DNA of 28,993 bases from the IMG/VR virus record IMGVR_UViG_3300006751_000085, positions 1 through 28,993 of that record; one strand, given 5' to 3'. Shown one piece after another: positions 3,557 through 28,993 of this stretch; position 1 is the first letter of the stretch; each line of letters opens with the position of its first letter. This DNA is from a virus. A model generated the notes under the pieces. That model made no database searches. It was given only the letters and a program-made list of their open reading frames with translations, and was not told the origin of the DNA. Both the position numbers and the translations under genes were made by a program.

Positions 3557-4778
3557 GTCAGAAAAAACACAAGAAAAAGTAGAGAAAGAAGGGGATTTTA
3601 AAATAAAGAAAAAACCTAAAAAATTAACCTCAAAAAAACAAAATACTACAAAAGTAGATTTTAAAAAACAAGAGGAAGAAGCAATAGAAGAAAAAACTAA
3701 AAATACAGAAGATGCCGTACGAAGGGAGACAACTAGCAGCGTGCAAAGCTCAGGAAACGGAAGCGAAGATAGCAGGGAAGATTCCAGAGTGGGATTGTCA
3801 CAGTCCGAGTCCGTTGACAATGAAACTTCACAAGAAGAAGTGTCCAAGTCTAATGAAGAGGAGAAAAAAGAAGAAACACCGGTAATTGAAGAAATAAGTA
3901 TTGGCGAAGAAAAGAAAGAAATAGAACCTCAAGTAGCTGAAACTCCTACTTTACCAAAAGTGGAACTTCCAGAAAATGTTGAAAAACTAGTGGATTTCAT
4001 GAAAGAAACTGGTGGTACTATGGAAGATTATATTAGATTAAATGCAGATTATTCTAATATAGATAATGACACACTAATAAAAGAATATTATAAACATACT
4101 AAACCACACTTAGATAGTGAAGAAATAAACTTTATTTTAGAAGATAATTTCACATATGATGAGGAAGTGGACGAAGAGCGATATATAAAAAAGAAAAAAC
4201 TCGCTTATAAAGAAGAAATTGCAAAAGCTAGGAACTTTTTAGATGATTTAAAAGGTAAATATTACGACGAGATCAAGTTGAGACCGGGCGTTACCCAAGA
4301 ACAAAAAAAAGCAACAGAGTTTTTCAATAGATACAACAACGAACAAGAAGTAGTTAAGCAACGACATGAGGTATTTAAAAATAATACTAAAGATTTTTTT
4401 GATAATGAATTCAAAGGTTTTGAATTTAAATTAGGAGAAAAGAATTTTAGGTATAATGTTAATAATACTTCTAATGTTGCAGATAACCAATCCGATTTAA
4501 CAAATCTAGTAGGGAAGTTCCTAGACGACAAAGGTAATGTTAAAGATTTTAATGGTTATCATAAAGCTATTTACGCAGCTCAAAATGTAGATACAATAGC
4601 TAGTCATTTTTATGAGCAAGGCAAAGCCGATGCTACAAAGAATATAATGGCTAAATCTAAAAATATAAGTAACGAACCTCGCCAAACGGCTACAGGGGAT
4701 GTATTTATAAATGGATTAAAAGTAAGAAGCATTTCGGGAGTTGACAGTTCAAGGTTGAAGATTAAAACGAAAAAGTAA
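3555..4778 (+). CDS. Probable capsid scaffolding protein
   Basis: This 407-aa protein lies between portal and major capsid genes, the usual place for a scaffold. Residues 1-~125 are highly charged and low in complexity: a Lys-rich start, then a Ser/Glu-rich stretch, then Glu/Lys blocks. Residues ~130-300 are predicted to be largely helical, and the last ~25 residues are basic (ending RLKIKTKK), as expected for a scaffold that binds the inner capsid surface by a charged tail. No enzymatic motif is visible. Codons ~56-89 (3721-3820) have 52% GC by hand count, against 18-37% in neighbouring lines, and use codons rare in the rest of the window (AGC, TCC, AGG). A structural role inside the head other than scaffolding cannot be excluded. 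Confidence 0.72.
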   Translation: MSEKTQEKVEKEGDFKIKKKPKKLTSKKQNTTKVDFKKQEEEAIEEKTKNTEDAVRRETTSSVQSSGNGSEDSREDSRVGLSQSESVDNETSQEEVSKSNEEEKKEETPVIEEISIGEEKKEIEPQVAETPTLPKVELPENVEKLVDFMKETGGTMEDYIRLNADYSNIDNDTLIKEYYKHTKPHLDSEEINFILEDNFTYDEEVDEERYIKKKKLAYKEEIAKARNFLDDLKGKYYDEIKLRPGVTQEQKKATEFFNRYNNEQEVVKQRHEVFKNNTKDFFDNEFKGFEFKLGEKNFRYNVNNTSNVADNQSDLTNLVGKFLDDKGNVKDFNGYHKAIYAAQNVDTIASHFYEQGKADATKNIMAKSKNISNEPRQTATGDVFINGLKVRSISGVDSSRLKIKTKK

Positions 4779-4780
4779 AA

Positions 4781-4796
4781 TTTAAAAACATAAATC
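4781..4796 (+). promoter_or_regulatory. Leader motif before the capsid gene
   Basis: TTTAAAAACATAAATC stands directly before the capsid ATG. A near copy, TTTAAAACATAAACT, stands directly before the ATG at 28560. Neither contains a Shine-Dalgarno sequence. The match between two starts 24 kb apart suggests a shared translation-initiation context for strongly expressed genes; this is inference from two copies. Confidence 0.35.
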
Positions 4797-18781: not shown

Positions 18782-21700
18782 ATGTATGAAATAGATGGGG
18801 TTACAGTTAGTGAAGAAGAGTTACAAGCAAAAGCGGAAGCTAGTGGAATATCTCTTCAACGCTTATTAGAACTCAATCCTAATATAAAACTTGCTGAACC
18901 AGAAGAAGAAGTAGAAGAAGAAGTTACAGAAGAAGTTACTCCAGAAGGAGAAGAAGTAACTGAAACAGAAACTACAGAAAAATTTGATCCAGGTTTTTTA
19001 TCGGAATATTTTAGCGCAGATCCAAAAACTCAAAGTCAAAAAGATTTTAATTATTTTGACAAAGATTTTAATAAAGTTTCAGAAGATGCTGGATCTGTAT
19101 GGATTCCAGATAGGTTTGGAGGAGGAAAAGGATTTGAAGAAACAGTTGTACCTGAATTAAATGATAAATTTAAAAAATGGGGATTTGTTTTTACACAGTC
19201 AGACGCGTTTGGTGATGGAGTAACAGTAAGTTCTACTACCAATCCAGAAGTAAAAAAAGAATTTGATTTAGACGATCCTGTTAAAGGAATGGCAAGTTTA
19301 AGAAAATATTTAGAAGCTAATAAAAGAGATAATGCCGTTTATACTGATGAAGTAGTAAAAATAACTCCTGAATTATTTAAATCTATAGGAGAAGGAATTG
19401 AGACTGAAGATGAATCTATTTTAGAAGGAGCAACTAGAAAAATATATGCTTCAGAAGGATTAGACTATGATGAAATAAAAAATATAGAAAATAAATCTAA
19501 AGAAAACGAAAAATATATTAATTTCATTGATAAGAAATTATATGGTGAATATCAAAAACCGATGTTTTATGATAAAACATTTGAAGCTGGAATGTATAAA
19601 ACTAAAGACGAAGCAGCCGCGAGATATTCTCCTACACCTGAGGAAATAAAAGAATATCCTCAATTGTTTAATGAAGATGGAAGTTTAAAAGTAAATGTAA
19701 GCGATTTTAAAAAAGAACTTAACGATGCTAATGAGTCTTTAGCTGATATCTCTGGTAATCCTGCTATTTATGATGCTAAAATTAAACAAGCTAATATCTT
19801 TAAAGACGCTACTAACAATGCAACTAAAGAAATTGTTACAACTAGTGAGGCTTTAAGAAATGAAAGCAAAAATCTTCAAGCTGAATTTCAAAAAATAACA
19901 GGTACAAGTATCAACAATTTAGAAACATTTAGTAAAAACATTGATAATCAAATATACGTTTTAGATAGAGAATTAAAAAACGCTATAGGAATTACTTTAG
20001 AAGATATAGAAACTTATCAACCTAAAACTCAAGAAGAATTAAATATTATAAATGATATAGTAAATAGATATCAAACCCTTAATAATGAGTATATCATACC
20101 AACTCAAAATATATTAAATGGAATGAATACTTTAAATGCTGAGGGTCAACGATTAGATGATATAGGTAATACAATAAACGCTATACTTTCATATGATGAC
20201 GTATATAAAATTAGAGGAATATATAATGATAGTGGATTTCAAAGTACTATAAATAATGTAAAAAAGGGATGGAGCCAAGGTGTAGTAAATAGAGAAATGC
20301 TAGATGTAATGTATCGTTTTGATGATGTCACAAATGACGAAGACATGGCGAATGTAGCTAGAAAAGTAGCTGAAGAAACAGCATATCAAAGAGGGTTGCT
20401 GAACAGTCAAGTATGGGAGAGATATCAAAATGCCACTACAGTAGCTGAACAAATGAAGATATTAGGTACTAATCCAGGAGAAGTATTATTAAGTTTATTT
20501 GGCAATAGTATGAGTATGTTTACTTCTACAGGAGCTAAAACTTTTTTTCCTATGGTAATTGGATCGGCTGGAGTAGGAGCAGGGATAGGATTCGTAGGTG
20601 GTGGTGGAGTTGGAGCACTACCTGGAGCCATTTCAGGTTTAGGTAAAGGATTATTAGGATGGCAAACTATAACTGGTTTTAATATGGAGATGGGATCAGT
20701 ATACGCTGAAGAACTAACAAAAGGTGGATATGATTTAACTGATGCAAATTCCATTATAGAAGGTTTAAGAGACAATGAAGTAAGAAGTGTTGCTTGGGAT
20801 AGAGGAATTAAAAGAGGTATACCAATTGCAGTAATGAATTTTATAGGTGGAGCAGTTGCTAATGGGATGGTAAGTCCTATAGCAACTACAGGTAGACAAA
20901 TAGCTAATCAATTTGCTAAAGGGTTAGTAGTAGAACCAATATTTGAAGCGACAGGAGAAACTTTAGCACAAGCATGGGGAGAAGGAGAATTAACATATAC
21001 TGAAATATGGAATGAAGCAATTGGGGGAGTAGCTGGTAGTCAATCAAACATTGCTGTTGCTTACGCTAAAAATCAATTTCTAGGAGCTCAAAAGAAAACT
21101 GCAGATCAATTGTTAAACATTGATTATATAGCAGATAATAATTATGGATTAGATAAAATTAAAGCATTTGCAGAAAGATTGAGTAAAAAGGGAATTATTG
21201 ATACTAAACAATATGATGCTATCTTAGAAAATGCTACAGCAGTTGATGAAGCTAATGCTGCTATGAGAAAAGGTCCTAAGTTTATATCAGGATCTAGACG
21301 TAAAGCGATAAGAGCTAGATTAACAGATTTAGCTGTAACAAGACATGAAGCTGACGCAGTAGGAGCTACAGATTTACTAAGCGTTATTGAAGCAGAAATG
21401 AATGAAATAGCTACTACAGGAAGATTATTACCTAAAAGTGATATTGTAACTGCTACAGACTATATAGATTTAGCTAGAAAAACTATTGAAGCCGGAACTT
21501 CTTTTATAAAAGGTAGAACTGGAGAGGATATTGGGGTAATAAATATTACAGATCCTAATAAACTTGATAGAAAAATGTTTCCTAGTGATGAAGTATATAA
21601 TACTGTAAAAAAACAATTACGACAGAACAAACAAGAAGGTGGATTAATGCCTGGTTTTGTTACAGATATTATGGCTGATGGAAAGCAGTATATAGTAATG

Positions 21701-24700
21701 AATAATCAAGACGTTAGTACAGCTTATTACCATGCGTTAGCAGATGGAGATTTAGCTGGAGCAACTGTAATGGGACATGAAATATTACATACAGTGCTAG
21801 ATAGATCGTTTGAAGAAGGAGAAGTAATAGATATAGGAAAAGAACTTGAAGCTTATATAAATGAAGACGATGGTAGTAGAATTTCCAAAGGTGCTAAAAA
21901 AAGAATAACTTCAAAATTAAAAGGCTATGAACAAAAGTATGGAGGTAAAGACAGTAGATATTATCAAGAAGTATTTACTACTCTAAGTGATGAAATAGCA
22001 GGAGAAAATATAGAATACGGAAGACAAGATAAAAAGTTTTGGCAAGGAATAGCAGATTCTATAAATGACTTTATGTATAAAGGAAAATTTGATTCTGATA
22101 TTGCTAATAATATTAAAATAAAATCTTCAGAACAAGCTTTTCAATTTATTAAAGATTATAATAAAACATTTTATAAGAAGAAAAGATTTCATCAAACTAA
22201 AACACAATCAAAAGCTGGTAAAGATCAAATTGGTGAAAGAGAAAGCTTTATCCCGGAAGATGAAAAATCAAAAGCAACTCGTAGAGCTTTAAGAGAAGAA
22301 AACATAAAAGAAATATATGATCTTAATGCATGGGGTAAAACAAAAGGAGAGTGGAAAGAATTGTTAGAAGAAGATAGATCTATACTCAATAACTTAATAG
22401 ATCCATTTGAAATTGAAATTAAAGCTATTGCTAAAGGAGATCAACAGCTTGTTGCTGCCACAAAAGTTCCACTTATTAAACATATAAAAGCTTTTGATCC
22501 AGAAGTTAATAAAGATTTAGCAGGTTACATTGGGAGTTATTTAGATCATAAAGTTGGTACAGCTAGGAAAGATTTAGCTAAAGGAGCTGTTCCTGCAGGA
22601 GTTAAAACTAAACGAATAGGAGAGAAAAGAGAAGGAGAAAGAGAATTTGATATAGCTGCTGAAGAAGAAACAGATATAAAAGCAAGAAAGAAAAGAGAGG
22701 AGGCAGAAGTTGTTATACTTAGTGATAAAATAAAAGTTAAACCTGACACAAAGAAAGCTATAACAGATAGAGTATTTTCTATTAATTATATGACGTTACC
22801 TGATCCTACGTTAGAAGTTTCTCAAAATAAAACTGTTACTCCTTTTGTCTCACAATTAAAACAAGAAATAGGTAAAGGAAAAATAGAAAGAAAAGGTAAA
22901 GTATCTAGACCTTTGTCTCCAGCAAGTAGAGCGATGATTAAAGAAATGGGTGGTAAAGGTAAGTTTGGGGATTACTTAAGAGAAAATCTAAAAGAAATAG
23001 CCAAGAAATTACCTTTAGAATATGTAGCTAAAAATATGCCTCATCTTGTAATGAAGTCTGTTGATGGAGAATATACTTTAGATTGGCAAGGAAAAACTGC
23101 AACCAAAGAAGATAAATGGAGCTATGAAGAATCTGGTATGACTTCACAACCACGGAAACAAATATTAAAACCTAAAATAACTAACGAAGATGTAGAAGTA
23201 GTTATAGAAAGTTTTACTAAACCCACTGGTGCACCTATTCAAGCTAAACAAGAAGGATTAGCATATCAAGTAGCATCGGAATTAGGATTAGAGCAATTTG
23301 CAAAATCCCTTATTGAAGGAGACAAAATAGCAGAAAAATTTAAAGAATCTCAAGAGTTAGCTAAAAGAATATTACAAGATAAACACATTGCTAAAATACA
23401 TGCTGATCTTGAAAGAGGACTTAAAGGAATTAAAGCTAGTATATTACAAGACTTAACTCCTGCACAAACCTTAATGATTCGAAGTATGCTACCTTTAATA
23501 GCTTCAGAAATCGGTAAACCTGGTACAACTGTAAATAACTTTAAAACAATTGTAAGAGATTTATTAAATGATACTAGTAAATTAAATCCTGAACTAGAGT
23601 TAAGTACTGATGTTAAGAGGAAGATAAGTGAGTTTATGACTAAGGTTTATGAGCAAAATAGAAAAGCTGAAATGAGATCAGGAGAAAAAATCAATTTAGA
23701 AAAATTCTTAGAAAAAAGAACTATATATGATTTTGAAAAAGATATTTTAAAAGCTTTAGGATTAAGTGATAAAACTTATAAAGAATTACTTCAAGATGTT
23801 AGCAATGTAAATGCATTAAGAGAATTAGCTTTAAAACAAGCTAAATGGGAAATTGAAGTATTAAAAAGAGATCCCTTAGATGTAATTTTAGATTTTTTAA
23901 GATATGACAAAGAACATTACTCAAGTGCTGGAAAAATAGGAGACAAAGGATTTGTAAAAGAAAAAACTTTAGGAGAGCATGGTCAACAAATATTAAGTAG
24001 AGATGAAAGTAAAATCGATGGGAGATTTAGTGGGCAAGTATTTGAAAATGTTCAAGACTATTATGATAATGTAATTAATTTAATTGACCCTAGATATGAA
24101 GTAGATCAAAATAGAAATGTATATAGAGTTGAAAAAAATATACAAGGTGAAGCGACCTATACACGTATATTAACCACAAAAGAAGTACGTGAAAGTACTG
24201 AAGGTAAATACGTAGCTCCTCAAAGTTCTAAAGCAGTATTTAAAGAAATAAATAAATACATTAAAGAAGGATTAACAGAAGAAGAAGCTAAAAAACAAGT
24301 ATATAAAGATAGATTAGCTATAGCTGAAAAAGCTAGAGAAAGATTAAAAACTACTTTTGAATATTTAAAACATGTAAATGATCCTACTTTAACTGCTATG
24401 ATGGTTTTTAGTTTAAAATCAGATATGAGATCTATTCTGCGTGCTGCTGCTAATATAGAACATATATTTGAAGGAGAATTAATGCCTGGAAAACCTATAA
24501 AAAGAAATATAAAAGGTAAAGAAGTTTGGATAGAAGATTATTATGTGTATGAACATATGATACCTGCAGAGGTTATTATGTTATCCATGGTTGAAGCATA
24601 CTTTGGAAAAGGGAAGTTAGATGTGGATCAGTTGTTAGATAATTATCATGTTGCTATTATTCCAGCTAGTATGGATGATAAATTAAAAGAATTTGGATAT

Positions 24701-27700
24701 CAACAAGCAATGCCAAGTGGTTTTATAAATGATTTTAGCAAATTTATAGACAGATATTATAATGAAGCAACTAAAGGTTCAGTACAATTTGCTATAAAAA
24801 GTCTAAAAGATGATAAAATTCATGGACAAGAGTGGGTGGATATCTATGAAATGAACAATAATATTAAAACTACTCTAGAAAATAGAGCAAGTTTAATTCC
24901 GAGTGGAGTTATTAAAACTGATCAAAATAATAATGGATTTGTAGAGGCATCGGAAAATATGACTAATGCTTTAAATAATTCTATAAATCCTAAAGCACCA
25001 GTAAAGAAGATTAGAGTATTTGACTTTGATGATACTTTAGCTAAAACCAATAGCAAGGTATTTGCTACCAGAGAAGGAGAAAAGAAAACTTTAACAGCTG
25101 AACAATTTGCACAAGATGGGGCAAGATTAGAAGCTGAAGGTTGGACAATGGATTTTAGTGATTTTGATAAAGTTAAAGAAGGTAAGAAAGGTCCTATGTG
25201 GGATATAGCAAAGAAAATTGAAAAAGCTAGAGGAAATGAAGATCTTTATATCTTAACAGCTCGCAACATGACTGCTGCTCCAGCTATTAAACAATTCTTA
25301 GATTCTATGGGATTAGATTTTAAGATTCAAAATATTGTTGGATTAGGTAACAGTACACCACAAGCTAAATCTCAATGGATAGTTGAAAAAGCTGCAGAAG
25401 GATATAATGATTTTTATTTTACTGATGATGCAGTGAAAAACGTAGAAGCAGTTAAAAAAGTATTAAGTCCTTTAGATGTAAAAGCTAAAATTCAACAAGC
25501 ATCTAAAGGAGTGAGGTTTAGTATGACTACTAAAAAAGATCTTAAATGGAAAGAGAATAGTGTAGGAGATCTGAGTACTACGTTTGAGTTAAACGATAAA
25601 AAATATAAAGTAGATTTCTATCCTAGAGATATGGAAGATACAGATTATAATTTAGAATTTGAACTTGAAACAGAGCGAGGTACTACTCAAGAAATGACGG
25701 GAACTGGAGATTCTATGAAAGTTGTTAGTATTGTTTATAATGGGTTATTAGATCTTGTAAATAAAATGCCTAATGTTGAAAGAATAGCTTTTGTTTCTAA
25801 AGCATCCCAAGAAAGTAGAGTTAAAGTCTATAATACTCTTATGGAGAAATTAGCTGATAAACTAGGATGGAATACTGATGTATGGACAATTGAAAGTTTT
25901 GGGAAGTTAGAAAGTTATGAATTTGAATTAACAAAATCAGTTAATAAAATAGAAAAATCAAAAAGTAAATTTAGTATATTAAAACCAGTTAAAGATGTTT
26001 TAAATGTGGTAGATATTAAAAGTCCTATACAGCAAGATAATGTAAGGTATAGTATTTTAAGTGATGAATTTAATGGTATATTAGAAGATACAAAAGGGAT
26101 TGGGAAACAAAAAAGATATTCCGCTGCTAAAGCAAAAACAATTGGAGCTAGTAAAGGTAATTTTAAATTTTGGATTCCTTATTCTGCAGAAGATTATGTA
26201 GGGTTAATTTATCCTACTTTAAGTAAAGGACAATTAGGGGATAAACAAATGGCTTGGTATAAAGAAAATATTTTAGACCCTTATGCTGTAGCCATGGAGA
26301 GTGTATCTAAAGCTAGAATAAATCTAATGGATGATTTTAAAGCTTTAAAAAATAAATTAAAAATTAGTGACTTGCTTAAAGATAAGAATAAAAGTGGATT
26401 CACTAATGAGCAATCTGTAAGGATATATATATGGAATAAACAAGGATTAGAAGTTCCAGGTTTATCTAAAGCAGATTTAAAAGAAGCACTTGCTGTTGTT
26501 AATGGAAATAAAAAATTAAAGTTATTCGCTGATCAAGTTATTAATATAAATAAAGGAGATAAAATGGCGGCTCCTACTAAAAATTGGTTAGTAGGTAATG
26601 TTACTAGTGACTTAATGGATACAATAGACAAAGTCAAACGTCCTAAGTATTTAGAAAAATGGCAACGTAATGTAGATACCATATACTCTGAAGAAAATCT
26701 AAATAAATTAGAAGCTATATATGGATCTAAATATAGAGAAGCTTTAGAGAATATGTTAGCTAGAATGAAGTCAGGTAAAAATAGATTAACCACTGGGAAT
26801 AGATTAAGTAATAGAATTTTAGATTATATAAATGGATCTGTTGGAGCTATTATGTTCTTAAACATGAGATCTGCTGTACTACAGACTATATCCGCTATTA
26901 ACTTTGTTAATTGGAGTTTTAATAATCCATTAAAAGCAGGTGCAGCTTTTGCTAATCAAAAACAATATTGGAGTGATTTTTCTAAATTAATGAATTCTGA
27001 TTTTTTAGTGGATAGAAGAAAAGGTTTAAGATTAAATATAAGTGAAGCAGAAATTGCTGATGCAGCTGCAACTAGTGAGAATAAAGCTAAAGCAGTTATT
27101 AATTGGTTATTGCAAAAAGGATATGCTCCAACTCAAATCGCGGATAGCTTTGCAATAGCTTCAGGTGGTGCTACATTTTATAGAAATAGAATAAACGATT
27201 TAATTAAAAATGAAGGCAAAACAAAAGCAGAAGCTGAAGCACAAGCTTATCAAGAGTTTAGAGAAATAGCAGAAGAGTCTCAACAATCATCTAGACCTGA
27301 TAAAATATCTGCTCAACAAGCTAGTGATTTAGGTAGGATATTATTGGCATTTGCTAATACACCAATGCAGTATGCGCGATTACAAAAACGAGCTGCACAA
27401 GATTTAGTTAATGGTAGAGGAGATCCTAAAAGTAATATCTCTAAAATAATATATTATGGGTTTGTACAAAATTTAATCTTTAATGCTTTGCAACAAGCTG
27501 CGTTTATGTTAGGATTTGGAGATGATGAAGAAGAAGATGAAAAAGCTAAAGAAAAAATATACAATAAAACTCTAAACGGGATGGCTGATTCTATATTGCG
27601 AGGATTAGGTATAGGTGGACAAACAGTATCTGTAGTTAAAAACTTCTTATTAGATATATATGAGCGATCAGGTAGAAGTAGACCTGAATATTCAGAGGCG

Positions 27701-28111
27701 GCTTGGAAATTACTTAAATTCTCTCCACCTGTTAGTTCTAAAATATCTAAAATGAGGGAAGCAGCATGGCCTTTTGAAAGTAAAAAGAAACGAGCTGAAA
27801 TATATGATAAAGGATTTAGTATAGATAATCCTGCATATGAATCTTTAGCTAAAGTTATTTCTGCTACTACCAACGTGCCGTTAGATAGAGTATATTCTAA
27901 ACTAAATAATATAGAAGCAGCATTAGCCGAAGATAGTGATTGGTGGCAAAGTGTTGCTATGATAGCTGGATGGCCAGAATGGGTGATAAAACCTAAAGAA
28001 AAAGAAAAAAAGAAAACGAAAAAAGGCAAAGGAAAGATCATTTTGAAATCTCCAAAAATCAAAATAGGAGGAAATATTAAATTAGGAAATAAGCAAAAAA
28101 TAAAATTATAA
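18782..28111 (+). CDS. Giant multidomain virion protein (large polyvalent protein type)
   Basis: 3109 aa, the largest gene in the window, starting one base after the previous stop. Visible regions in order: acidic linker ~40-65; long helical part to ~570; Gly-rich apolar stretch 579-640 and a second near 680-700, possibly membrane-active; HEILH at 999-1003, a zincin-type zinc protease motif, with E1063 or D1070/E1071 as possible further ligand; a helical segment ~1200-1266; a complete HAD phosphatase motif set (D2081, D2083, T2159, K2196, D2215/D2216) at ~2076-2236; an alpha/beta segment ~2248-2393; then a strongly family-like C-terminal region from ~2430 (GSVGAIMFLNMRSAVLQ at 2685, SSRPDKISAQQA at 2836); and a very basic tail. 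I recall the C-terminal region from giant phage proteins. It is probably packed in the capsid and ejected. Whether it is proteolytically processed is unknown. Confidence 0.75.
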   Translation: MYEIDGVTVSEEELQAKAEASGISLQRLLELNPNIKLAEPEEEVEEEVTEEVTPEGEEVTETETTEKFDPGFLSEYFSADPKTQSQKDFNYFDKDFNKVSEDAGSVWIPDRFGGGKGFEETVVPELNDKFKKWGFVFTQSDAFGDGVTVSSTTNPEVKKEFDLDDPVKGMASLRKYLEANKRDNAVYTDEVVKITPELFKSIGEGIETEDESILEGATRKIYASEGLDYDEIKNIENKSKENEKYINFIDKKLYGEYQKPMFYDKTFEAGMYKTKDEAAARYSPTPEEIKEYPQLFNEDGSLKVNVSDFKKELNDANESLADISGNPAIYDAKIKQANIFKDATNNATKEIVTTSEALRNESKNLQAEFQKITGTSINNLETFSKNIDNQIYVLDRELKNAIGITLEDIETYQPKTQEELNIINDIVNRYQTLNNEYIIPTQNILNGMNTLNAEGQRLDDIGNTINAILSYDDVYKIRGIYNDSGFQSTINNVKKGWSQGVVNREMLDVMYRFDDVTNDEDMANVARKVAEETAYQRGLLNSQVWERYQNATTVAEQMKILGTNPGEVLLSLFGNSMSMFTSTGAKTFFPMVIGSAGVGAGIGFVGGGGVGALPGAISGLGKGLLGWQTITGFNMEMGSVYAEELTKGGYDLTDANSIIEGLRDNEVRSVAWDRGIKRGIPIAVMNFIGGAVANGMVSPIATTGRQIANQFAKGLVVEPIFEATGETLAQAWGEGELTYTEIWNEAIGGVAGSQSNIAVAYAKNQFLGAQKKTADQLLNIDYIADNNYGLDKIKAFAERLSKKGIIDTKQYDAILENATAVDEANAAMRKGPKFISGSRRKAIRARLTDLAVTRHEADAVGATDLLSVIEAEMNEIATTGRLLPKSDIVTATDYIDLARKTIEAGTSFIKGRTGEDIGVINITDPNKLDRKMFPSDEVYNTVKKQLRQNKQEGGLMPGFVTDIMADGKQYIVMNNQDVSTAYYHALADGDLAGATVMGHEILHTVLDRSFEEGEVIDIGKELEAYINEDDGSRISKGAKKRITSKLKGYEQKYGGKDSRYYQEVFTTLSDEIAGENIEYGRQDKKFWQGIADSINDFMYKGKFDSDIANNIKIKSSEQAFQFIKDYNKTFYKKKRFHQTKTQSKAGKDQIGERESFIPEDEKSKATRRALREENIKEIYDLNAWGKTKGEWKELLEEDRSILNNLIDPFEIEIKAIAKGDQQLVAATKVPLIKHIKAFDPEVNKDLAGYIGSYLDHKVGTARKDLAKGAVPAGVKTKRIGEKREGEREFDIAAEEETDIKARKKREEAEVVILSDKIKVKPDTKKAITDRVFSINYMTLPDPTLEVSQNKTVTPFVSQLKQEIGKGKIERKGKVSRPLSPASRAMIKEMGGKGKFGDYLRENLKEIAKKLPLEYVAKNMPHLVMKSVDGEYTLDWQGKTATKEDKWSYEESGMTSQPRKQILKPKITNEDVEVVIESFTKPTGAPIQAKQEGLAYQVASELGLEQFAKSLIEGDKIAEKFKESQELAKRILQDKHIAKIHADLERGLKGIKASILQDLTPAQTLMIRSMLPLIASEIGKPGTTVNNFKTIVRDLLNDTSKLNPELELSTDVKRKISEFMTKVYEQNRKAEMRSGEKINLEKFLEKRTIYDFEKDILKALGLSDKTYKELLQDVSNVNALRELALKQAKWEIEVLKRDPLDVILDFLRYDKEHYSSAGKIGDKGFVKEKTLGEHGQQILSRDESKIDGRFSGQVFENVQDYYDNVINLIDPRYEVDQNRNVYRVEKNIQGEATYTRILTTKEVRESTEGKYVAPQSSKAVFKEINKYIKEGLTEEEAKKQVYKDRLAIAEKARERLKTTFEYLKHVNDPTLTAMMVFSLKSDMRSILRAAANIEHIFEGELMPGKPIKRNIKGKEVWIEDYYVYEHMIPAEVIMLSMVEAYFGKGKLDVDQLLDNYHVAIIPASMDDKLKEFGYQQAMPSGFINDFSKFIDRYYNEATKGSVQFAIKSLKDDKIHGQEWVDIYEMNNNIKTTLENRASLIPSGVIKTDQNNNGFVEASENMTNALNNSINPKAPVKKIRVFDFDDTLAKTNSKVFATREGEKKTLTAEQFAQDGARLEAEGWTMDFSDFDKVKEGKKGPMWDIAKKIEKARGNEDLYILTARNMTAAPAIKQFLDSMGLDFKIQNIVGLGNSTPQAKSQWIVEKAAEGYNDFYFTDDAVKNVEAVKKVLSPLDVKAKIQQASKGVRFSMTTKKDLKWKENSVGDLSTTFELNDKKYKVDFYPRDMEDTDYNLEFELETERGTTQEMTGTGDSMKVVSIVYNGLLDLVNKMPNVERIAFVSKASQESRVKVYNTLMEKLADKLGWNTDVWTIESFGKLESYEFELTKSVNKIEKSKSKFSILKPVKDVLNVVDIKSPIQQDNVRYSILSDEFNGILEDTKGIGKQKRYSAAKAKTIGASKGNFKFWIPYSAEDYVGLIYPTLSKGQLGDKQMAWYKENILDPYAVAMESVSKARINLMDDFKALKNKLKISDLLKDKNKSGFTNEQSVRIYIWNKQGLEVPGLSKADLKEALAVVNGNKKLKLFADQVININKGDKMAAPTKNWLVGNVTSDLMDTIDKVKRPKYLEKWQRNVDTIYSEENLNKLEAIYGSKYREALENMLARMKSGKNRLTTGNRLSNRILDYINGSVGAIMFLNMRSAVLQTISAINFVNWSFNNPLKAGAAFANQKQYWSDFSKLMNSDFLVDRRKGLRLNISEAEIADAAATSENKAKAVINWLLQKGYAPTQIADSFAIASGGATFYRNRINDLIKNEGKTKAEAEAQAYQEFREIAEESQQSSRPDKISAQQASDLGRILLAFANTPMQYARLQKRAAQDLVNGRGDPKSNISKIIYYGFVQNLIFNALQQAAFMLGFGDDEEEDEKAKEKIYNKTLNGMADSILRGLGIGGQTVSVVKNFLLDIYERSGRSRPEYSEAAWKLLKFSPPVSSKISKMREAAWPFESKKKRAEIYDKGFSIDNPAYESLAKVISATTNVPLDRVYSKLNNIEAALAEDSDWWQSVAMIAGWPEWVIKPKEKEKKKTKKGKGKIILKSPKIKIGGNIKLGNKQKIKL
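21659..22021 (+). other. Zincin-like metallopeptidase segment in the giant protein
   Basis: Encodes about residues 960-1080. It holds GHEILH (HExxH, His999/Glu1000/His1003) preceded by an Ala/Thr/Val-rich strand-like stretch and followed, about 60 residues on, by YQEVFTTLSDEIAGE, which offers acidic residues for the third zinc ligand. Such peptidase domains are known in phage polyvalent proteins; the substrate is unknown. Confidence 0.55.
25007..25489 (+). other. HAD-superfamily phosphatase domain in the giant protein
   Basis: Encodes about residues 2076-2236. All four HAD motifs occur in order: DFDDT (2081-2085, nucleophile D2081 and acid/base D2083), ILTARN (T2159), the Lys of PQAKSQ (K2196) and FTDDAVKN (D2215/D2216). 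A roughly 60-residue stretch between motifs I and II can hold a small cap. The ILTAR motif and DD pair resemble polynucleotide-phosphatase-like HADs in phages, but the substrate cannot be told from this. Confidence 0.78.
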
Positions 28112-28114
28112 GTT

Positions 28115-28543
28115 ATGGCAGTATATAAACACAATGCAAAAGACGTAGCAAAATGGAACTCTTCTATACCTTTGATTAGTCCATTAAAGAAAACTCCTCC
28201 TGAAGGAGGACATGAAAAAAAAATCCACATGGGAGGAGATATAGAAAAAACAGTAGAAGGAACTAATATAGGAATACATGGTGACAAAGGAGATGTGGGA
28301 ATTGGATTACATATAGGAGGAATAAAACCTAAAAGTGGTGAACATGGAGAACATCATGCACCCCACTTTAGTGGACAATTAAGTTATAAAGGAGTGAATA
28401 TTCAAGCTGGTCCACGTCAGTTACAAGTAGGATATAAAGGTCCTATTTCAGATATTGTAGATTTTGCAAAAAATAAAATAATAAACCCTATAAGAGAAAA
28501 ACGAAAAGAAAGAAAAGATCAAAATCTTGAAGAAAATTCTTAA
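28115..28543 (+). CDS. Small basic Gly/His-rich protein, unknown function
   Basis: A 142-aa protein starting three bases after the giant gene stop. The middle (residues ~35-100) is rich in Gly, His and Ile with a near-periodic pattern (GTNIGIHGDKGDVGIGLHIG), which suggests short beta turns or a beta-roll-like fold. The last ~25 residues are strongly charged (REKRKERKDQNLEENS). No signal peptide and no known motif. Its position after the giant virion protein suggests a virion or assembly role; nothing more can be said. A 277-aa frame on the other strand at 27454-28287 overlaps it and the giant gene, but that is a shadow. Confidence 0.65.
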   Translation: MAVYKHNAKDVAKWNSSIPLISPLKKTPPEGGHEKKIHMGGDIEKTVEGTNIGIHGDKGDVGIGLHIGGIKPKSGEHGEHHAPHFSGQLSYKGVNIQAGPRQLQVGYKGPISDIVDFAKNKIINPIREKRKERKDQNLEENS

Positions 28544-28544
28544 A

Positions 28545-28559
28545 TTTAAAACATAAACT
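28545..28559 (+). promoter_or_regulatory. Leader motif before the secreted-protein gene
   Basis: TTTAAAACATAAACT lies directly before the ATG at 28560 and closely matches the 16-base leader of the capsid gene (4781-4796), differing by one fewer A and the last two bases. It may mark efficient initiation by a Bacteroidota-type ribosome; based on two copies only. Confidence 0.35.
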
Positions 28560-28993
28560 ATGAGAAAATTATTATTAACATTTATATTATCACTGTTTGT
28601 AGGTATATACTACCCACAGTGTACTCATACGTTTACTGGTTACGATTCATATGGAGATGGTTGGAATGGAGCGAGTGCAACAATAACCGTAAATGGAATG
28701 ATAGTTGGGCAATGCGATATGCTATCAGGATCTTCAGAAATAGTTCAATTCCCCGCCACTGATGGTGATCTAATTAAGTTAGATTGGATGTCAGGTTCCT
28801 GGGATTCAGAGATATCTTGGGATGTTAAAGATGGTGTAGGAAATACTATAGCAATGGGGGCTTGGGGAACTACTACAGTTGGTAATGCTGCGTGTCCACT
28901 TGCAACACCTTGTGCTCAACTAAATTACTTTCAAGATTTTGAAACAGGAAGTACAGTGATGACATCAACCACTAATAGTGGATCAAGTGTTAG
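28560..28993 (+). CDS. Secreted or surface protein with DSYGDGWNG motif, 3' end outside the window
   Basis: 144 codons are visible, with no stop. The N-terminus MRKLLLTFILSLFVGIYY is a clear signal peptide (two basic residues, then an apolar core), probably cut near Q20/C21; the sequence before C21 is not a standard lipobox. Then comes YDSYGDGWNGASATITVNG, a motif I know from secreted Bacteroidota proteins with a beta-sandwich-like repeat, then a Cys pair region (AACPLATPCAQ) and YFQDFETGS, which resembles the start of a MAM-like adhesion domain. A Sec signal is unusual in a phage structural region. It could be a tail-associated receptor-binding or host-surface-modifying protein, or a gene acquired from a host. 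The ATG at 28560 is the natural start after the conserved leader. Confidence 0.78.
   Translation, partial: MRKLLLTFILSLFVGIYYPQCTHTFTGYDSYGDGWNGASATITVNGMIVGQCDMLSGSSEIVQFPATDGDLIKLDWMSGSWDSEISWDVKDGVGNTIAMGAWGTTTVGNAACPLATPCAQLNYFQDFETGSTVMTSTTNSGSSV

Follow-up and report, generated by a model that had tools for sequence, protein, structure and literature searches.

The type IX secretion system (T9SS) of Bacteroidota is an established pathway in which proteins enter the periplasm through Sec, are recognised by a C-terminal sorting domain (CTD) and cross the outer membrane, to stay on the cell surface or be released. Flavobacteriia usually possess such a system. Phage products that act at the outer membrane are also known, and in T5 the small lipoprotein Llp brings about superinfection exclusion by stopping adsorption. 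With regard to phage-encoded cargo for the T9SS, the cargo of 'Cryophage' was called a 'unique occurrence', and Bellas et al. 2020 (PMC7468147) suggested that it hijacks the host system, supplies virulence factors or excludes superinfecting phages.

We describe here a gene at the end of a phage contig. On sequence comparison it is best explained as a moron, an accessory gene of host origin in a Bacteroidota phage, and its product, an adhesin, is very probably phage-encoded cargo for the host T9SS.

The phage and its virion genes

The window, by which we mean the whole stretch of DNA analysed, makes up the entire 28993-base record of an IMG/VR virus. Its genes for terminase, portal, scaffold-like protein, capsid and several structural proteins are followed by those for a giant protein and a 142-aa protein and then by the adhesin reading frame. 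PHROG profiles recognise the terminase, portal and other head genes. The portal is 42-51% and the capsid 44-50% identical to those of the nearest named phages (85-87 records), and this homology, with a match to phrog_6547, places the window in the lineage of Elemovirus and the Cellulophaga and Maribacter podoviruses, a marine lineage represented by hundreds of contigs. The nearest isolated phages have Flavobacterium, Cellulophaga, Maribacter and Tenacibaculum as hosts, and we infer that the host of the window phage runs a T9SS.

The giant protein (3109 aa; 18782-28111, + strand) has a counterpart annotated as structural in elemoE, and the end of its gene marks a variable junction. In MW202828 (Manatee Spring) the giant gene is the last in its module, and the elemoE record stops just past it; no T9SS domain was found in these two or in Maribacter phage Panino, the three named relatives examined. 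The 142-aa gene (28115-28543, + strand) belongs to no known family, and Pfam gave no match on the giant and neighbouring genes. The giant protein holds GHEILHTVL (HExxH-like) and FDFDDTLA (HAD-like) motifs and is possibly an injected multi-enzyme virion protein.

The reading frame at the contig end

The last reading frame of the window (28560-28991, + strand) runs for 144 aa and is still open at the contig end, at codon 144; complete relatives identify it as the 5' part of a secreted adhesin gene. That it is a real gene, far beyond chance, is confirmed at the sequence level by the match on the independent contig of a sister phage (L002; tblastn 4e-82), by homologues at 64-70% identity in three other phage sequences and by dN/dS, which is 0.15 against the sister and 0.17-0.23 among complete genes. 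Ratios of 0.15-0.23 show that the gene is kept as a protein under purifying selection.

The Sec signal peptide claimed in the first-pass annotation is there at aa 1-19 (28560-28616, + strand), where the hydrophobic segment MRKLLLTFILSLFVGIYYPQ has a Kyte-Doolittle value of 2.9 over 11 aa; cleavage would be near Q20/C21, and all relatives in the alignment have signal peptides as well. It is followed by an N-terminal beta-sandwich domain (28617-28904, + strand), which includes the YDSYGDGWNG motif, also as claimed, at aa 28-37 (28641-28670, + strand). Within this motif DSYGDGWN is invariant in 14 of the 14 aligned sequences, phage and bacterial. The sequence FQDFETGS is at aa 124-131 (28929-28952, + strand), and alignment and the structure of a relative indicate that a jelly roll of cleaved-adhesin/CBM type starts here and runs past the window. 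The earlier description of FQDFETGS as MAM-like holds for the presence of the sequence but is loose for the module, which in the complete relative best fits K1, CBM61 and CBM22. MAM lies further on: Pfam gives no MAM (PF00629) above cut-off on the window's 144 aa, and matches in the complete relatives are at about aa 420-600.

The leader of the gene (28540-28559, + strand), AAATTTAAAACATAAACT, is indeed like that of the capsid gene (4777-4796), AAATTTAAAAACATAAATC, as had been noted. The shared phage program read from this likeness fared less well, as the motif TTTAAAANCATAAA has 12 matches at up to two mismatches in the AT-rich window against 9.5 expected, and the leader in the sister phage is quite different, with AGGAGGT. 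The motif was dropped as a common late signal, being neither enriched in the window nor conserved in the sister, and the likeness is weak evidence for a shared expression program.

Complete relatives on other viral contigs

The C-terminus of the window protein itself lies beyond the contig end, and the sorting domain has been read from relatives. A scan of 2.9 million viral contigs with the window reading frame gave seven of these. The sister phage has the same giant gene upstream and an adhesin 83% identical to that of the window, cut at 260 aa. Complete homologues of 1034 aa (L003), 1046 aa (L004) and 1033 aa (L005 and L006) are 60-70% identical to the window protein over the shared part, and L007 (981 aa) and L008 (896 aa) have only the N-domain in common with it. 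In L004 a second protein of the same style (P0006, 1200 aa) adjoins the adhesin. The window reading frame had no tblastn match in INPHARED, and the adhesins could not be placed with confidence in any PHROG family.

All six complete sequences (P0001-P0006) have Por_Secre_tail (Pfam) above cut-off and five of them, P0001 being the exception, also have TIGR04183 (NCBIfam, T9SS type A) above cut-off; PKD_6 and MAM are likewise found on P0001-P0003 and P0006. A recognised CTD is thus present in every complete relative with the N-domain type of the window (P0001-P0005). The type IX sorting domain that the first-pass annotation proposed to look for is therefore found in these relatives, and also in another phage of the lineage (L084), where the gene occupies this very site. 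We infer that the missing 3' end of the window gene encodes a CTD too, and consider export of the adhesin by the T9SS highly probable on these comparisons.

No gene other than that for the adhesin is common to the window and the L003-L008 loci, and there are T4-type portals on the records behind L004-L007, so the adhesin gene has moved between unrelated phages.

These data also bear on the suggestion that the protein is part of the virion, a fibre for receptor binding or a decoration, and that its likeness to secreted proteins of bacteria is superficial. Its gene is directly behind virion genes and on the same strand, and all-beta adhesive modules would suit such a role. However, a signal peptide and a sorting domain at opposite ends would remove the adhesin from the cytoplasm, the place of virion assembly. 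The gene is also missing from most relatives, whose virion gene sets are full, has no PHROG match and occurs in the unrelated T4-type phages. The virion-fibre reading was rejected because of the export signals at both ends and the patchy occurrence of the gene, and we regard it as very unlikely.

Predicted structure of the adhesin

Fold models were built from the family alignments. Window aa 20-110 are modelled as a beta-sandwich with block pLDDT mostly 77-91, which superposes on the calcium-dependent CBM60 with Z of 7.8 (2xfd) and 7.2 and on LecB lectins with Z of about 5.5, values of a size that is common without kinship. Foldseek with the N-domain gave nothing at E <= 0.001 (best E 0.03), and PDB sequence searches gave a weak MAM match only. 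The likeness of this domain to lectins and CBMs, of LecB or CBM60/CBM36 type, is a weak one of fold and only suggestive.

The full model of P0001 has a mean pLDDT of 57.7, and its well-modelled blocks alone were counted. For aa 126-300, the FQDFE module, the best fits include CBM61, CBM22 and K1, a cleaved-adhesin domain of Lys-gingipain, the last with Z 12.4 and rmsd 2.4 over 134 aligned residues. The stretch at about aa 410-600 superposes on MAM domains with Z of about 13, and Pfam places MAM at aa 421-588. In the case of aa 953-1034 the match is to the PorU CTD (Z 9.9, rmsd 2.4, 81 aligned), and this predicted fold supports the T9SS signal independently of the sequence profiles. The fold neighbours as a whole, CBM60, CBM61, a porphyran-binding CBM, Kgp K1/K3 and MAM, together with the all-beta modules, suggest an adhesin or lectin and not an enzyme.

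Bacterial origin of the modules

The proposed search for homologues gave, besides the phage relatives in the 2.9 million viral contigs, a bacterial protein (G027) that is 46-48% identical over aa 114-732, found by profile search of 295 Bacteroidia genomes. Many Bacteroidia proteins in the same search have the C-terminal half in common with the phage adhesins. The pre-CTD module is in 79 of 99 Bacteroidia genomes, often in many copies, and GTDB contigs scanned with short patterns gave weak N-domain matches only. These matches in Bacteroidia indicate that the phage genes were assembled from ordinary Bacteroidota secreted-protein modules. The type IX sorting domain in relatives and modules typical of Bacteroidota secreted proteins both support the earlier view of a host-acquired secreted surface protein.

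The junction behind the giant gene

The C-terminus of the giant protein was used as bait, and the best 80 of at least 547 lineage loci were taken, 63 of which have at least 700 bases readable behind the giant gene. A secreted gene of adhesin type is at the junction in five of the 63 (L072, which is the same contig as L002, and L074, L075, L082 and L084), and the window makes six. All junction contigs with such a gene have the window-type portal. In L074 the gene is fragmentary and lies on the other strand. In L084 it is complete, and its product has a signal peptide, an N-domain of another type, PKD and MAM, and a CTD that passes the Pfam as well as the NCBIfam cut-off. Over 943 aa this product shares 43% identity with P0003. 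The L084 contig (IMGVR_UViG_3300025131_000066) has two giant-gene ends on opposite strands and a single portal; it may be partly chimeric, or an unusual rearrangement, and its right-hand side is taken with caution.

Most other members of the lineage have different small genes at the junction, often before a gene for ribonucleotide reductase that runs the other way. When PF18962 (Por_Secre_tail) was run over 45 lineage records plus L060, L084 alone among the lineage passed the cut-off, and the gene is thus an accessory carried by a minority. This we count against the T9SS reading, as we do the short C-termini of L075 (285 aa) and L082 (474 aa), which have a signal peptide, the L084-type N-domain and the pre-CTD module, and in which neither Pfam nor NCBIfam calls a CTD.

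The short forms may show what a degenerate or differently anchored protein at this site looks like, and the window version could in the same way be without a working T9SS signal and end in the periplasm or outer membrane. However, all complete proteins with the N-domain type of the window (P0001-P0005) have a recognised CTD. The short C-terminus is also found in a phage of 634 kb (L223), and so may itself be a variant of the signal. We think a degenerate window protein improbable.

The independent contigs also deal with an artefact of assembly, in which bacterial DNA would have been joined to the phage contig. Such a join had been raised as a danger in the first-pass annotation, and the position at a contig end and the bacterial modules could be taken to point to it. 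However, L002 has the same junction type, and in L075, L082 and L084 there are phage genes on both flanks. The artefact is thereby refuted for the adhesin family, and for the window gene we find it hardly credible.

Other putative envelope genes of these phages

Secreted M43 (pappalysin-type) metalloproteases with a signal peptide and a T9SS sorting domain are on three viral contigs (L055:1444-2721, - strand; L057:517-1731, + strand; L231:514-1728, + strand, the same gene as in L060), and these CTD-bearing proteases are in the same phages or sites as the adhesins. Signal-peptide proteins of roughly 345-405 aa that resemble outer-membrane barrels are found in the window lineage, directly behind the giant gene in L101, L125, L089, L099 and L127, and in L007 (12943-13980) and L008 (12646-13683), with 35% identity (E 3e-51). 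A small protein that spans the membrane once and has a coiled tail (VGMYYTLQSDIEEAK) is beside secreted genes in the podovirus lineage and in L007/L008 (39%; L002:9630-9998, L075:11624-11899, L082:11868-12146, L007:13990-14274), and is perhaps a lysis gene product. L007 (10001-12946) and L008 (9959-12649) encode T9SS cargo with long runs of GCTDxxAxNYxPxAnxDDGSC repeats, and similar repeats are in cyanophage S-CAM3. Three phage records of 634-642 kb (LR745206, LR756502 and LR756504) have Por_Secre_tail above cut-off, and LR745206 shares the L075/L082-type short C-terminus (L223:2923-3363).

We read the adhesins, M43 proteases, barrel-like proteins and small membrane proteins as a putative set of envelope-changing genes. 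A wider proposal is that unrelated marine Bacteroidota phages (Elemovirus-like podoviruses, T4-type phages and phages of 460-640 kb) keep such genes as an exchangeable set, with which they re-dress the infected cell through the gliding and secretion machine of the host and exclude competitors, but this we put forward as a tentative and rather doubtful generalisation.

Proposed role of the adhesin

In our preferred reading a large multi-domain adhesin or lectin-like protein would be made during infection and enter the periplasm through Sec, where its CTD would be recognised by the host T9SS. After passage across the outer membrane it would remain at the cell surface or be released. The surface of the infected cell would be coated or altered, a change to the cell of the kind that the first-pass annotation proposed, and other phages, or the phage's own progeny, would adsorb poorly, which is the most likely purpose. 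In F. columnare phage resistance accompanies loss of gliding, and phage receptors have been proposed in the gliding machinery (PMC7345892), so altering the surface of the infected cell would be the most economical purpose. We judge T9SS export with surface remodelling of some kind to be somewhat probable, and the more specific claim of remodelling with superinfection exclusion to be a fair way plausible but short of probable.

The main rival to exclusion is adhesion or aggregation, in which the displayed lectin-like T9SS cargo would make infected cells, or debris, stick to polysaccharide of algae or to other cells, and progeny would thereby reach new hosts. The CBM60, CBM61, porphyran-binding CBM and Kgp K1/K3 fold neighbours and the marine lineage with its hundreds of contigs favour it. 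However, the Z values of the N-domain are in a range common without kinship, and the gene, placed after the late virion genes, would leave little time for any benefit to the host, and we hold this alternative to be unlikely, if less so than the others considered.

Comparison with known systems

Phage T9SS cargo is already known (Bellas 2020; de Jonge 2019), and it is the adhesin type, the M43 cargo and the site that appear to be new. In the literature, of which our coverage was partial, the Cryophage and BACON-linked reports were the only ones of such cargo, and none described an adhesin like the present one, M43 cargo or a site behind a giant virion gene.

Few cases are known in which an infecting phage routes proteins as long as about 1000 residues through a specialised secretion system of its host. 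The T9SS also exports the gliding adhesins that are thought to serve flavobacterial phages as receptors, and cargo from a phage that coated this surface, or competed for it, would, if the reading is right, make superinfection control in Bacteroidota directly testable. Through the adhesin gene, phages would also have a way to carry modules of secreted proteins from one member of the marine Bacteroidota to another.

The present genes resemble those of Cryophage in having T9SS type A sorting domains and in being variable among related phages, but Cryophage is a cryoconite phage and its cargo is an endoglucanase, a GH39 protein and a PA14 protein (PMC7468147), whereas the adhesin has cleaved-adhesin, PKD and MAM modules and is common to podoviruses and T4-type phages. 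The gut phages of de Jonge et al. 2019 (PMC6949934) also have T9SS sorting domains in reading frames near head genes, but these go with BACON repeats and crAss-like relatives and are without the modules of the present adhesin. Bacteroidota T9SS type A adhesins (Kgp K1/K3, PorU CTD) have the same signal peptide, jelly-roll adhesin modules and CTD fold; in contrast the present protein is phage-encoded and has no protease domain, and its identity to those PDB chains is low (13-17%). The likeness to T5 Llp would be in possible role only, that of a phage product at the outer membrane acting against adsorption, and the present protein differs in being about 1000 aa long and in that it would use a dedicated secretion machine.
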